47,976 nucleotides of DNA from Methanoregula sp. (GTDB lineage Archaea; Halobacteriota; Methanomicrobia; Methanomicrobiales; Methanospirillaceae), in NCBI GenBank assembly GCA_030651815.1, contig JAUSBW010000113.1, positions 1 through 47,976 on the forward strand, in the 5' to 3' direction. Made by a program: the position numbers and the translations under genes. Numbering within the stretch: the first letter of the stretch is position 1; each line of letters opens with the position of its first letter. The notes below the pieces were generated by a model, which worked only from the letters and a program-made list of their open reading frames with translations, did no database searches and was not told where the DNA came from. This document shows, in pieces, positions 3,418-16,252 of this stretch.

Positions 3418-4497
3418 TCACTCCTTATAGAGCATCTGCACGAGTTTTTCTGCGGATTCCCGTGTGAGACCCATATCGAGTATTGTAAAGCGCTCGGGAC
3501 GGATAGTCTTTGCCATCAGCAGGGCTTCGACGGCAATCGCGTCCTCGATACCGAGATCTGCCGGAGTAGTCGGGGCCCCAATCATCTTTAGCGATGACCT
3601 GATACTGCGCCAGTCGCCGCCATGCAGGTACATGGAGATGATAGTGCCAATCCCGCAGCTCTCGCCATGCAGTGCCTTGCCCGGGGCGAGTATGTCAAGT
3701 GCATGGGAGAACTTATGTTCTCCGCCGCTTGCCGGGCGCGATGACCCGGCAATACTCATCGCAACCCCGCTTGATACGAGCGCTTTGATCACAAACCATG
3801 CGGACTGCTCCTGGTGCGGTTTGATCAGGTGAGCGTTCTTTACAAGAATCTCGGCAGTCATCTTCGATAAGGTGATGGCATATTCGCTCACCGGTTCGCC
3901 TTTCACCCGGTGGGCGAGCTCCCAGTCGAGAATCGCTGTATAATTCGAGATCACATCTGCACAACCAGCGGCGAGAAGCCGGTGCGGGGCTGATGCGATA
4001 ATGCCGGTGTCGGCAATGATGGCCATAGGGGGCTGTGCTTCCAGCGAGGCATGCCCCTCCACGGTGGGCACGGATGCGCGTCCGGAGGCTATACCATCAT
4101 GAGATGCGGCAGTCGGGATGCTGATGAACGGGCGGTCGAGATTATATGACACGATCTTTGCGGTATCGATCACCCTCCCGCCACCGACACCGATCAGGAA
4201 ATCCACATCCGCAGCAGCGGCTTCTGCATCCTTTATAATGGAGAGATTGATCTGTTCAGCAAGGAAGGGGATGACCTCGTAGTCCTGTGAAAGAATCTTC
4301 ATAACCCGGCCACCGGCCAGATCCATCGTGCCTTTACCCGAGATGAGAAGGACTGACGCACCCAGTTTGAGATCCTCGCAGACAGCGGGAAGCTGCCCGA
4401 GCACATCATGACCGATCACTACGTCTCTGGGGAGCTGCATCCACTTGGACTTGTCAAAGACTTTCTGTTTAAGTAATTTTATTGCATCCGCGCTCAT
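3418..4497 (-). CDS. egsA: sn-glycerol-1-phosphate dehydrogenase
   Basis: The enzyme reduces dihydroxyacetone phosphate to sn-glycerol 1-phosphate, the backbone of archaeal ether lipids; it is cytosolic and Zn-dependent. At 359 residues it is full length. The NAD(P)-binding GVGGGRVIDTAK is at residues 103-114, followed by SIPTAASHDGIASGRAS at about 127-142. The metal-ligand region includes GGEHKFSHALD and HGESCGIG near residues 260-285, as in the iron/glycerol dehydrogenase superfamily. It heads a two-gene operon with UPF0179 and is divergent from the DUF63 gene, the two starts being only 12 bases apart. Such close spacing implies short-leader or leaderless transcripts with overlapping promoters. 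Confidence 0.96.
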   Translation of the reverse strand: MSADAIKLLKQKVFDKSKWMQLPRDVVIGHDVLGQLPAVCEDLKLGASVLLISGKGTMDLAGGRVMKILSQDYEVIPFLAEQINLSIIKDAEAAAADVDFLIGVGGGRVIDTAKIVSYNLDRPFISIPTAASHDGIASGRASVPTVEGHASLEAQPPMAIIADTGIIASAPHRLLAAGCADVISNYTAILDWELAHRVKGEPVSEYAITLSKMTAEILVKNAHLIKPHQEQSAWFVIKALVSSGVAMSIAGSSRPASGGEHKFSHALDILAPGKALHGESCGIGTIISMYLHGGDWRSIRSSLKMIGAPTTPADLGIEDAIAVEALLMAKTIRPERFTILDMGLTRESAEKLVQMLYKE

Positions 4498-12557: not shown

Positions 12558-12749
12558 TCAGTCGTACTTGCCCTTTGGTTCTGCCCACCCGGTGAACCCG
12601 CAATAAATACACCCGGCACCCTCGCACTGCAGACACTGCCGTTTTGGTGCCGTGACCAGTACTGTGCCGGTTTTATTGCAGACCATGCACCCGAATCCCT
12701 CACAGTGCGCACACAGTGCAGGTTCATAGATCTTTTTCCCGTCACTCAT
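12558..12749 (-). CDS. Small zinc-finger protein (DnaJ-type CxxCxG repeats)
   Basis: The 63-residue protein consists mostly of four Cys pairs: CAHCEGFG, CMVCNKTG, CLQCEGAG and CIYCGFTG. These are CxxCxG-type repeats like the central zinc domain of DnaJ, here free-standing. It probably binds two zinc ions. The ATG at 12749 is adopted; it ends convergent to the dGTPase gene, 16 bases away. Function unknown; such free-standing proteins are common in Methanomicrobiales. Confidence 0.7.
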   Translation of the reverse strand: MSDGKKIYEPALCAHCEGFGCMVCNKTGTVLVTAPKRQCLQCEGAGCIYCGFTGWAEPKGKYD

Positions 12750-12801: not shown

Positions 12802-14901
12802 TTACTCATCATCCTCGTCGAGATACCGTGAGAGCGCATCAAGCAGTTCAACCGCTGACTGGTACCGATCATCTGGATATTTTTCAAGACATTTCAGGAT
12901 AATCTTTTCGACAGCCCCGGCATCTGCGGTGTACTCATAGGGAGGAAGTGGTTTTTCCCGCAGGATCGCATTGCCCACCTCAACGATACTTTCGCCGCCA
13001 AACGGAATCGAACCCGTGATCAGTTCATAAAAGACCACACCGAGCTGGTAGACATCGGTGCGTTCATCGGTCCGGCCAAACTCCGAAGGAGAGACCTGTT
13101 CCGGAGCGGCATACGAGAGCGAGAAGCCGGCAATGCTGGACTTTTTAATATCCGCTGCAAGCACCTTGCTCATTCCCCAGTCCGTGATTTTCGGTACAAG
13201 ATCAGCAGTCATCAGGATGTTGTGCGGCTTGATGTCGCGGTGGATGAACCCATGCTCATGGGCGTATCTCAGGCCATCCGTAATCCCGCGGATTATGTGC
13301 ACCGCCTTCCAGACGGGCAGTGGTTTTTCCAGTTCCTCTAACGAGACGGGCACAAACTCCATCTCCACATACGGCACGGGCAGAATATTGACAGCAAAAA
13401 CCTCAACAATATTCTCGTGCCTTAGCGTTTCCCACGCTTTGATCTCGTTTAAGAATGACCTGCCCGTCATCTCGTCAAAACTGATCGGAATCTTGACTGC
13501 CACTTTTAAGCCATCAGTCTTTCGGACAGCAGAGAAAACCCACGCGATGCCCCCCCGCCCGATAAACGCGATATCAGTATACTTGTTCTCAAGTTCCCTT
13601 GGGAAGTAGTATTTCTGGTCAGAAGTGGCCGGATAATATCCATCCGGTATGCTCTCATGGGGAAGTGCGGTATATTTAACAGGAGTTGTCACCGGGGAGC
13701 GGGAGTTACGGAAGATCACGGTCGCTTTTGTCGGGGGCAGAGCGGCAGGTTCATTAAGGAAATCTACCGGCACGTGTGCCTTTTGTTTCCGGTACAGCAG
13801 AATGATCGCACCCGCAAGAACGGCAAGGAACAAAAGCCCCATTGTCAGTGTGATGGTTCCCAATGGAAGTCTGTCACGGAAATTATCCGCTGATGTCGGA
13901 GAAGGGGTAATGGAAGATGTAAACGGCACGGATGTTGTCGTGTTAAGGGGTGTATGAGTCAACGAAACCGTGGGTACAGGGACTAAGGGTGTCTGGGTCA
14001 AAGATATATCTTTGACCGGAACCGGCAGGATTCCCGCGTAATACTCTTTTGGATCCATGAGGGGGAACGCATCAATGATATTCTGGTCCGATTCCAGAAT
14101 CGCTTTCGGGTTTCCTCCAATAACGATCACGTAGGGGGAGTCACCAATCCCGTCACCATTCATATCCCTGCCATGGTAATCGCTCCAGTAGTTCCCCATG
14201 AGGCTTTGCTCTTTTTTCCCCAGATAGGTATATGTCAGGGGGGTTGTTGTGCTCCAGATGGAGGTAGCACTCTTTGAGAGCACATTCTGGGTGTTGAAAA
14301 AGTTGTTCTTAAATATCCGGTTGGAAAGCGAGGATTCGTCAAGGCTGATGCCACGGGTATTTGCGCTGATTATATTGTCTTCAATCAGGTTGCCAATCGA
14401 ACCCTCAAGTACAATCCCGGTTCGCTGGTTGTTGGTGATATTATTCTCCGAGAGGGTGTTTTTCCGGGCAGATGCCAGTGTTATTCCCTGCGCATTGTTA
14501 TGTATGGCATTTCTCCTGATCGTATTCAGATCTGAAGAGACGAAAATACCATTTAACAGGTCACTGTTCCTGATGACAAAACCTTCCACAGTGCATCCAT
14601 CGACCCGGATCTCCACAGCATTGCCCGTTTTACCCGGATCAATGACTGGCGTACCATTGCCACTGTCTATGCCGAAGAGCAAAATCTTCTTGTCAATGCG
14701 GACGCTTTCTGCATAAGTACCGCTTTCAACAGTGACGGTATCCCCGGAAGATGCCCAGTCGATTGCCTTCTGTATGCTGGTAAACCCGGCACCTGATGGT
14801 GCTACGGTGTGTTCGGCAGCTGCTGCAGTCGCGATACAAGCAGTACAGAAGATGAGAAAAAAGACGACGATTAACCGGGTTGCAGAAAAGATGTGGGTCA
14901 T
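12802..14901 (-). CDS. Receptor-like Ser/Thr protein kinase with extracellular NosD beta-helix domain
   Basis: The 699 residues fall in clear order. A signal peptide comes first (residues 1-29, hydrophobic VVFFLIFCTACIATA). Next is a right-handed beta-helix of NosD/pectate-lyase type (about 30-290, repeats such as NTIRRNAIHNN, NTLSENNITNN and NLIEDNIISAN), then a Thr/Pro-rich stalk (about 295-343). One membrane helix follows (about 345-372), then a cytoplasmic Hanks-type kinase domain (about 435-695). The kinase keeps the VAVK lysine (about 467), HRDIKPHN catalytic loop (about 550) and APEQ segment. The usual DFG is DWG (ITDWGMSK, about 575), a tolerated variant. The predicted role is to sense something outside the cell and phosphorylate cytoplasmic targets; the neighbouring HTH-FHA protein is a plausible partner. 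Confidence 0.9.
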   Translation of the reverse strand: MTHIFSATRLIVVFFLIFCTACIATAAAAEHTVAPSGAGFTSIQKAIDWASSGDTVTVESGTYAESVRIDKKILLFGIDSGNGTPVIDPGKTGNAVEIRVDGCTVEGFVIRNSDLLNGIFVSSDLNTIRRNAIHNNAQGITLASARKNTLSENNITNNQRTGIVLEGSIGNLIEDNIISANTRGISLDESSLSNRIFKNNFFNTQNVLSKSATSIWSTTTPLTYTYLGKKEQSLMGNYWSDYHGRDMNGDGIGDSPYVIVIGGNPKAILESDQNIIDAFPLMDPKEYYAGILPVPVKDISLTQTPLVPVPTVSLTHTPLNTTTSVPFTSSITPSPTSADNFRDRLPLGTITLTMGLLFLAVLAGAIILLYRKQKAHVPVDFLNEPAALPPTKATVIFRNSRSPVTTPVKYTALPHESIPDGYYPATSDQKYYFPRELENKYTDIAFIGRGGIAWVFSAVRKTDGLKVAVKIPISFDEMTGRSFLNEIKAWETLRHENIVEVFAVNILPVPYVEMEFVPVSLEELEKPLPVWKAVHIIRGITDGLRYAHEHGFIHRDIKPHNILMTADLVPKITDWGMSKVLAADIKKSSIAGFSLSYAAPEQVSPSEFGRTDERTDVYQLGVVFYELITGSIPFGGESIVEVGNAILREKPLPPYEYTADAGAVEKIILKCLEKYPDDRYQSAVELLDALSRYLDEDDE

Positions 14902-14988
14902 GGGCTTATTGAACGGATTTCCTGCATACTATCGGATAAGTTCATCATTCTTTTTTCAATGGTCATAAAAAAACCGTAATTATCCGGA

Positions 14989-15774
14989 TCATGCAACGGG
15001 GGGGATGATCAGGACAAGTTTTACTCCGGATATTCCTTTTGCAAGCTCAACAAGATCCCCGTCACGAACCGGGACACGTGCACGGCTCTCAATTTTTTTA
15101 TTGTTCAGCTGGGTTCCCCCGGTACTCCCGCAGTCCTCGATATACCAGATGCCATTAACGTGACGGAATCGTCCATGGGGCTTTGACACCCGGGTAACAG
15201 CGGTATAACCATCTGCAAGGACGATATCCTTTCCGGGAACGAAAGAGGTCAGGTTATCGGAATCGATCCTGCCGATAGCAACGGTATCAGTTTTTAATAT
15301 GAATGCTTTGCCATCATCAGGGCCCCCAAGCACAATGGCAGCAGGGCAGTTACCGAGCACCTCTTTGGAGAGGGTACCTTTCACCTCTTCAAGCCGGCGG
15401 GAGATCACCCCCCCAACGATCTGCACCCGTGCGTTGGAGAACAAACCCAGATTCCTGATGATCGCTTCGAGTCCGCCGGGAACCACAGAATACTGCCAGA
15501 CGGGATGGATGCCTTTTGAGGTTGGGGCGCCGAGACCAGCCTCCTTTTTGATCACGCCAATGCCCAGCAGCTTGTCCAGATGCTTTTTGGTGTTCTCGTA
15601 GCTGGTCTCGATCTCGTTTGAGATCGCACGGACATCACGGGGTTTTTTCTCTAAAAATTTTAAAATTCTGAGTCGTGCGCTGCTCGACAGAACATCCAGG
15701 TACTCTGAGAGTTCCTCTAAAGAATCTGACTCTTCATGAATAATTATTGTCGGGGATTTATCCGCAGGATTCAT
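14989..15774 (-). CDS. HTH transcriptional regulator with C-terminal FHA domain
   Basis: The protein has 261 residues. Residues about 22-90 form an ArsR-like winged helix (LDVLSSSARLRILKFLEKKPRDVRAI...). After a linker comes an FHA domain at about 165-258, with the conserved order GRIDSDN, TRVSKPHGRF (S..H core) and YIEDCGSTGGTQLN. FHA domains bind phosphothreonine peptides, so DNA binding or dimerisation may respond to a protein kinase. The receptor-like kinase lies directly downstream on the same strand (gap 87 bases), suggesting one signalling unit. Partnership is inferred. Confidence 0.9.
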   Translation of the reverse strand: MNPADKSPTIIIHEESDSLEELSEYLDVLSSSARLRILKFLEKKPRDVRAISNEIETSYENTKKHLDKLLGIGVIKKEAGLGAPTSKGIHPVWQYSVVPGGLEAIIRNLGLFSNARVQIVGGVISRRLEEVKGTLSKEVLGNCPAAIVLGGPDDGKAFILKTDTVAIGRIDSDNLTSFVPGKDIVLADGYTAVTRVSKPHGRFRHVNGIWYIEDCGSTGGTQLNNKKIESRARVPVRDGDLVELAKGISGVKLVLIIPPVA

Positions 15775-15930
15775 ACCGCTCCACTGGAAGGATCTCTAAT
15801 TTTTTCTCATAACCATCAGGTAACCGGAAGATAAGGGCATGACGGTTTAAATTCTCTCTCCCGCACCTATCCTTACGGTTCATAGCAGGAACCTGGAGGT
15901 TCGATGCCCGAACCATCACAATTTGGGGAA

Positions 15931-15938
15931 TATATAAG
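15931..15938 (+). promoter_or_regulatory. TATA box for the small secreted protein gene
   Basis: ATATATAA preceded by GGGGA lies about 90 bases upstream of the start at 16025, implying an untranslated leader of about 60 bases. AAGGAGA just before the ATG is the ribosome binding site. Confidence 0.5.
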
Positions 15939-16024
15939 CTCAACCCCAGACACTATAACCAGGTGATACACGATACTCATTCGGCGTGTCACCGATCCAT
16001 GCAGAACAAACAAAGGAGAACCAA

Positions 16025-16252
16025 ATGGATACTGGCAAAATTTTTCTTGGGATCGCGCTCATCGCATTTTCGGTTGCAATGGCGATTAATCCCGCCAGTG
16101 CAGCCGGGTGTGATAGTTCCTGTTCGGTTGGAAGCGGGAATTTCCACACTGCCGACTGCGGGAGCGCTGCCGGTTCATCGCAGGATTCGGATTCTACCGC
16201 ACATTCCGATAACCCTGCTTTCTACGAGACCTGCCCAGGGAATCTGCCATGA
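16025..16252 (+). CDS. Small secreted Cys/Ser-rich protein
   Basis: ATG 16025 is chosen because AAAGGAGAA sits just upstream. The 75-residue product has a clear signal peptide (residues 1-27, IFLGIALIAFSVAMA ending at ASA-A). A mature part of about 48 residues follows, with four cysteines (two close together in CDSSC) and many Ser, Gly and Asp. It is probably exported and disulfide-bonded. No family recognised. The upstream TATA box and ribosome binding site make it a credible gene. Confidence 0.65.
   Translation: MDTGKIFLGIALIAFSVAMAINPASAAGCDSSCSVGSGNFHTADCGSAAGSSQDSDSTAHSDNPAFYETCPGNLP

Follow-up and report, generated by a model that had tools for sequence, protein, structure and literature searches.

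A conserved pair of a receptor-like Ser/Thr kinase and an HTH-FHA regulator with a predicted role in surface-to-DNA signaling in Methanomicrobiales

The window analyzed here, a stretch of 47,976 nucleotides from Methanoregula sp. (GenBank assembly GCA_030651815.1, contig JAUSBW010000113.1, positions 1 to 47,976), encodes on its minus strand a membrane-spanning Ser/Thr kinase with a beta-helix ectodomain (12802 to 14901) and, beside it, a protein joining an ArsR-like helix-turn-helix (HTH) to a forkhead-associated (FHA) domain (14989 to 15774). An earlier note on this DNA described both genes and proposed a one-step route from a surface receptor kinase to an FHA regulator; both lie at the coordinates and on the strand it gave, and comparative data strongly support the core of that idea, while its interpretation as a whole is supported in part. 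The best explanation overall, and one we consider reasonably probable, is that the first gene encodes a receptor kinase and the second its dedicated FHA transcription regulator, which would control its own operon and the divergent gene at 16025. Links from Ser/Thr kinases to transcription in archaea are known mainly from the motility and DNA-damage circuits of Sulfolobus, and the present genes form a compact kinase-regulator pair found across an order of methanogens. The pair is not described in the open-licence literature searched, including the available parts of PMC7226565 and PMC2877116; subscription papers lay outside that scope.

The kinase gene encodes 699 amino acids (open reading frame [ORF] check, Pfam, transmembrane [TM] prediction, and AlphaFold), with Pfam matches above cut-off to NosD (residues 102 to 244; E = 9.7e-26) and Pkinase (441 to 681; E = 2.9e-38). 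A signal peptide or TM segment at residues 10 to 28 and a second TM segment at 350 to 368 place the beta-helix outside the cell. An AlphaFold model built from 26 sequences comprises a right-handed beta-helix at about residues 30 to 240 (positions 14182 to 14814; predicted local distance difference test [pLDDT] near 90), a disordered Pro/Thr-rich stalk (297 to 346), a TM helix (347 to 374), and a kinase fold. Between helix and kinase lies a juxtamembrane linker (residues 375 to 432; 13606 to 13779), disordered in the model at 374 to 428, whose TVI motif contains T394, a candidate docking site. The kinase domain (residues 433 to 698; 12808 to 13605) carries the catalytic Lys (K470), HRD Asp (D556), and DFG-type Asp (D574, here in DWG) of Hanks-type kinases. 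Its nearest solved structures are those of mycobacterial PknB, and it does not belong to the Stk1/PknB PASTA kinases as defined by NCBIfam (199.6 against a cut-off of 450, with no PASTA match). The ectodomain likewise falls below the cut-off of the NosD subfamily model (122.1 against 300), so "NosD" is used as a fold label only, and a NosD-type copper function was rejected on this score. The sole other kinase above cut-off in the window genome, on contig C77, is soluble, has an HGD motif, and is of another class.

The stop codon of the 261-amino-acid regulator lies 87 bp before the kinase start on the same strand. Pfam places HTH_5 at residues 32 to 77 (E = 7.9e-06; 26.1 bits against 22) and FHA at 167 to 244 (E = 1.1e-10; 42.2 bits against 20.7), both above cut-off, and a stricter NCBIfam metalloregulator model is not matched (25.5 against 55). 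The AlphaFold model, from 52 sequences, consists of a winged HTH (residues 17 to 81; 15532 to 15726) with a near-invariant recognition-helix region, TSYENTKKHL, then a helical middle and an FHA domain at pLDDT of about 90 (residues 145 to 256; 15007 to 15342); residues 1 to 15 fall below pLDDT 50. The FHA fold matches GarA, OdhI, and others at E near 1e-7, and it is the only FHA domain in the window genome.

The conserved neighborhood that the earlier note suggested looking for is present: among intact, informative cases the two genes are apart only once, so the separation in most relatives that the note named as a refutation was not seen. HTH-FHA homologues occur in 85 of the 108 genomes of the family and in 52 of the 59 high-quality ones. 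One of the 85 (G078) has an FHA-only match and was dropped, leaving a linkage set of 124 places in 84 genomes; of the 11 places removed, one was a fragment in G002 interrupted by TAG/TAA, one was half (the second) of the split gene in G047, and the others were short FHA-only matches. Linkage was read from neighborhood DNA, with start codons and TM segments picked by script. Overall, 110 of the 124 places are kinase-linked, 12 are cut by contig ends, 1 is a relic, and 1 is a real exception. This exception is a regulator in G006: the next gene encodes a PP2C-type phosphatase, and beyond it lies a second HTH-FHA gene with its own kinase 3 bp on. Among the neighborhoods of the window and 120 places, a kinase ORF lies within 3 kb in 109 of 121; 107 of these kinases lie immediately downstream in the same orientation, and 2 are convergent (L091 and L099). 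Eleven of the 12 neighborhoods without a kinase reach a contig end in less than 2 kb, and in one of them, G007, the contig stops within the ORF that comes after the regulator, while a kinase end sits on another contig. A contig-edge fragment in G012, a relic in G011 (with a stop and without a kinase), and one further linked copy were read separately. A separate scan of named genomes, which overlaps the first set in many genomes and adds Methanoculleus and Methanofollis, gave 71 of 80 linked, 8 at contig ends, and the same G006 exception.

Presence and absence follow the same pattern. A hand tally of the matches listed for the 59 high-quality genomes finds an intact regulator together with a strong kinase in 51, neither in 6, only a kinase of the unpartnered class in 2 (G010 and G063), and an intact regulator alone in none, the G011 relic being counted as regulator absent (Fisher p = 6e-7, kinship ignored). 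Regulator and kinase identities correlate (r = 0.93), and when regulators are divided into type A (at least 48% identical to that of the window) and type B (below), the nearest kinase has the same regulator type for 105 of 107 kinases. The two proteins almost certainly act in the same pathway.

Among the matches listed for 392 genomes of the phylum, the full-length regulator is found only in the order Methanomicrobiales; one family of the order (f3) gave weak matches, and matches outside the order are to the HTH or other short stretches. A locus labeled Thermoplasmata (L167) carries the pair with a regulator 76% identical to that of the window, and its genome is probably mislabeled or mis-binned. 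Core loci, the window's own clade, were defined as the 36 loci with at least 64% identity to the window regulator. Genes for a dGTPase (33/36), p63 (34/36), ParA, a secreted protein (26/36), and the 16568 product recur as neighbors only in these loci, and more distant loci share no flanking genes except two ParA-like matches. The regulator-kinase pair is the conserved unit, not the region. The dGTPase, ParA, p63, and 16568 genes were rejected as parts of the system, being kept only in the window's own clade. A gene for a small CxxC-rich protein follows the kinase gene closely on its strand (12558 to 12749, minus strand); present in 34 of 36 core loci, it is possibly co-transcribed.

The sensor also varies. 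Set A2 combined the window with 51 of the 80 named loci, and set A3 comprised 38 of 39 representative kinases (L071, cut by a contig end, was left out). Pkinase was found in all 38 representatives, NosD in 10, and PEGA in 6, and many other partner kinases have at least four predicted TM segments and a small ectodomain. Kinase and reader are therefore the constant core, to which different sensors are attached, and a surface carbohydrate or polymer, the signal proposed in the earlier note, cannot be the general one. This natural series has the same output and different sensors (NosD, PEGA, or multi-TM).

Conservation within the pair points to phosphorylation. K470, D556, and D574 are all intact in 108 of 109 paired kinases, so the loss of key residues that the earlier note named as a way to overturn its proposal has not occurred. 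The W of DWG is present in all 109; it was rejected as a mark of partnered kinases because unpartnered kinases carry it too. In an alignment of 118 of 121 regulators (full-length; L076, L154, and L155 left out), Thr9 (codon at 15748 to 15750) is kept in 117, in a T-[IVL] context, and no other column of positions 2 to 20 exceeds 63%. Since residues 1 to 15 are predicted to be disordered, structure alone is an unlikely reason for this conservation of one threonine in an otherwise variable tail. The only regulator without Thr9, L127, is also the only locus of the 109 with an incomplete K470/D556/D574 set, a single case. A motif resembling that of Thr9, T[IVL][IVL], occurs in the juxtamembrane linker of 44 of 109 kinases, where composition-matched shuffles give 10.3 ± 2.9, and of 14 of 39 representatives, where they give 2.8 ± 1.5 (the observed count is reached by 0 of 400 shuffles in either case). 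Control patterns (Ser, Ala, Asn, Asp, or Pro first, or reversed order) are near expectation in the representatives, and the Ser-first control is mildly raised in the full kinase set (15 against 8.9). We consider it likely that the kinase phosphorylates the regulator, and Thr9 is the probable main site.

The following sequence of events is proposed. A signal at the ectodomain would activate the membrane kinase, which would then autophosphorylate threonines in its cytoplasmic linker (T394 is the probable site in the window). The regulator could dock at this phosphorylated linker through its FHA domain, and the kinase would phosphorylate Thr9 in the tail of the docked regulator. Capture of phosphorylated Thr9 by the FHA domain, in cis or in a dimer partner, would change the activity of the adjacent winged HTH, which is predicted to bind tandem GGTT-N9-AACC sites between its own promoter and that of 16025. 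The output would be autoregulation of the regulator-kinase operon and control of the 16025 protein.

The phosphothreonine (pThr)-binding motifs described for FHA domains in the consulted part of PMC1262709 are GR, SxxH, and NG. In the window regulator, GR and SxxH are kept and NG is replaced by GG. GR is present in 118 of 118 regulators, S or T at position 197 in 114, and H200 in 118, whereas the canonical Asn of NG, N219, is present in none (G in 106, S in 11, A in 1). This family-wide replacement of N219 implies either an adapted pocket or weakened pThr reading. The FHA domain might then have become a phospho-independent dimerization or protein-protein module, with Thr9 kept for, e.g., capping of the first helix; interactions of this kind are known for GarA, to judge by the title of a cited paper. 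We consider this unlikely, because G168, R169, H200, S217, G220, and N224 are each kept in 118 of 118 regulators alongside S/T197, and because the first long helix (H17-29) begins only some 8 residues after Thr9, whose surroundings have pLDDT below 50. In a fold search, the closest match to the window FHA domain is GarA bound to PknB, followed by OdhI, and the FHA domain of DgcB with its own phosphorylated N-terminal peptide (6hc0 and 6hc1) also ranks high. On balance, binding of phosphorylated Thr9, a phosphorylated linker Thr, or both by this FHA domain is somewhat favored.

The predicted DNA target lies between divergent promoters. Alignment upstream of the regulator revealed conserved GGTT and AACC blocks, and alignment and site counts define two GGTT-N9-AACC palindromes in the window, at 15877 to 15893 and, 21 bp from the first, at 15898 to 15914. 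This perfect tandem (15877 to 15914) occurs once in the window genome. It is flanked by two conserved blocks that are putatively assigned as the TATA box of the regulator gene (AGAATTTAAACC, 15844 to 15855, minus strand) and the transcription factor B recognition element (BRE)/TATA of the divergent gene (GGGAATATATAAGCT, 15926 to 15940, plus strand). Of the 36 core loci, 26 contain perfect sites (39 in all, compared to 0.0 in shuffles, with other spacings at or near chance) and 34 contain sites with at most one mismatch; by hand reading of the site list, two sites stand exactly 21 bp, or two helical turns, apart in 26 of 36. Among named non-core loci, sites with at most one mismatch occur in 19 of 52, compared to 5.0 in shuffles. 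The palindromes could belong to another regulator of the divergent pair, as HTH regulators are numerous and a second palindrome occupies the same intergenic region. This is unlikely in our view, given that the HTH recognition region is near-invariant and that single GGTTC-N7-GAACC-like sites recur 71 to 82 bp upstream of the regulator in other clades beside other neighbors, including the distant type B. The HTH-FHA regulator likely binds the tandem operator. Archaeal operators upstream of the TATA box usually mediate activation, and as this one lies upstream of both, an activator is slightly favored over a repressor.

The earlier note had named the genes at 16025 and 16568 as potential targets. 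Only the first survives: 16025 shares the divergent region and the tandem palindrome between TATA boxes with the regulator, and no operator evidence was found for 16568. Gene 16025, which we consider a probable regulon member, encodes a small secreted protein (16025 to 16252, plus strand, within an ORF of 15986 to 16252, the likely start being 16025) whose signal/TM segment, M(D/N)TGKI..G, is conserved and whose mature part is hypervariable, and is detected as the divergent neighbor in 26 of 36 core loci. A conserved signal followed by a hypervariable remainder is the pattern of variable surface or signaling peptides. At the expected transcript start of this gene lies the conserved palindrome GGTGATACACG..CGTGTCACC (15962 to 15993), whose stem pairs are kept in 32 to 35 of 35 core loci with a few paired changes; it may be an RNA hairpin or a second operator. 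Single GGTT-N9-AACC sites were rejected as a genome-wide regulon: 21 GGTTVN7BAACC sites compare with 3 for a reversed-pattern control, but about 28 are expected by a rough equal-base hand estimate, so only the tandem is claimed. Other tandem-like places in the window genome comprise one with 2 mismatches, the remaining 19 of 21 having 3, against 6 for the control. A few tandems with 0 to 2 mismatches among the matches listed for other species, upstream of secreted or surface ORFs, have no homologous neighbor in common and are not claimed. One such case, L243 (G061:C1, site at 4025), is a one-mismatch tandem about 100 bp upstream of a 263-amino-acid secreted-looking ORF; no HTH-FHA match was found in this genome, and its kinase sits at a contig edge.

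Two further explanations concern the relay itself. The HTH-FHA protein may regulate only the operon while the kinase acts on other proteins, linkage reflecting co-expression. The autoregulatory operator and the lack of the canonical FHA Asn fit this arrangement, but it is improbable in view of the invariant Thr9 in a disordered tail, the enriched similar linker motif, the FHA domain as conserved partner of a kinase whose sensors change, and the co-absence of both genes in high-quality genomes. Membrane tethering, in which the autophosphorylated kinase keeps the regulator at the membrane and off the DNA through its FHA domain, any phosphorylation of Thr9 serves to free it, and output is repression or derepression by sequestration, shares with the receptor-kinase relay the evidence for docking (the FHA domain and the T[IVL][IVL] motif in the linker) but is similarly improbable, as on its own it does not account for the stronger conservation of Thr9 compared with the linker motif.

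Several points weigh against the proposed relay from receptor kinase to dedicated regulator. The main doubt is the replacement of N219, which may have altered or abolished pThr reading. Of the 109 kinases, 65 lack the strict linker motif, and the shuffles used to gauge its enrichment ignore kinship. AlphaFold gives tail residues 1 to 15 no confident placement. No PP2C_2 (PF13672) phosphatase was found in the window's own genome. The operator is weaker outside the core clade, with perfect sites in 4 of 83 loci, and 10 of the 36 core loci yielded no homologue of the secreted protein. Finally, every phosphorylation and binding step, as well as the sign of regulation, is inferred. The candidate phosphosite Thr9, the docking candidate T394, the 38-bp operator, and the divergent target make this outside-to-DNA path directly testable with two proteins and one DNA fragment.

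The genes of PknH and EmbR in Mycobacterium tuberculosis are adjacent. As described in the consulted part of PMC4601284, PknH-EmbR pairs a transmembrane Hanks-type kinase with a transcription factor bearing a C-terminal FHA domain, whose FHA residues are needed for phosphorylation and whose output is DNA binding. The window pair has the same arrangement. However, EmbR consists of an OmpR-type HTH and a BTA domain (same source), whereas the window regulator has an ArsR-like HTH and no BTA or OmpR-type match in Pfam; unlike EmbR, it also has an N-terminal Thr9 tail and belongs to an archaeal pair with near-obligate, order-wide linkage. In the fold search EmbR ranked 36th at 12% identity, a weak, FHA-level match. 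In the PknG-GarA/OdhI systems, according to the consulted part of PMC8546545, the FHA domain docks at autophosphorylated sites in a disordered stretch of the kinase, and the tail Thr is then phosphorylated. Like GarA and OdhI, the window regulator has an N-terminal Thr in a flexible tail ahead of FHA, in this case a predicted phosphosite. In contrast, GarA and OdhI lack a DNA-binding domain and act on 2-oxoglutarate metabolism, and their ETTS motif is absent from the window regulator, which also scores well below the OdhI (28 against 200) and FhaB (40 against 125) models. By analogy, the pair may work like PknH-EmbR in its output and like PknG-GarA in its docking and tail logic, but it belongs to neither kind, having no BTA/OmpR-type HTH and no ETTS motif.

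Other comparisons are more distant. The Sulfolobus ArnA-ArnB proteins with the ArnC/ArnD kinases place an archaeal FHA protein in a phosphorylation-controlled transcription circuit, as described in parts of PMC6509490 and PMC10470591; ArnA has a zinc-finger domain and works with a vWA partner, and its binding to DNA required a partner (PMC10470591, in part). Unlike ArnA, with its N-terminal zinc finger, the window regulator has an N-terminal HTH fused to the FHA domain and a receptor kinase as its partner. Bdellovibrio DgcB offers a likeness in its FHA domain, solved with its own phosphorylated N-terminal peptide (6hc0 and 6hc1), but its output is a diguanylate cyclase (GGDEF) rather than transcription. 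Like bacterial and archaeal two-component systems, the pair couples a membrane sensor with variable input to a DNA-binding partner encoded next door; unlike their His-Asp chemistry, it uses a Ser/Thr kinase and a pThr-reader fold. It looks like a complete threonine-based counterpart of two-component systems.

More tentatively, the Methanomicrobiales may possess an order-specific class of threonine-based two-component systems, with one HTH-FHA output, one kinase domain, and interchangeable sensors, in which linker and tail mimic one T-[IVL]-[IVL] type motif for the same FHA domain. In the window clade, its output would be a divergent promoter dedicated to a hypervariable secreted protein, itself possibly the ligand or a surface variant marker sensed in feedback. 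The features new here are the Thr9 kept in a variable tail together with a similar linker motif, and tandem palindromes between divergent promoters.

PP2C-type phosphatase genes lie inside the HTH-FHA/kinase operon in three genera (L103/L277 in G006, L089 in G095, and L078 in G033), directly after the kinase in G095 and G033, and likely encode the cognate phosphatase. Unpartnered DWG-class kinases also occur (L274 in G053:C78, L270 in G063, L271 in G054, and L273 in G015). Two of those in G053 have PQQ/BamB-like propeller regions and one has a zinc-ribbon N-terminus, as does that of G063. The genomes G054, G063, and G015 yielded no FHA protein, and G053 has its own HTH-FHA pair elsewhere. A different FHA-kinase system is found in several genomes of genus g13 among the matches listed, where a short FHA protein (frame of about 189 amino acids) lies about 4 kb from a large kinase (frame of at least 872 amino acids), e.g., at G073:C1:1718828 and 1723010.

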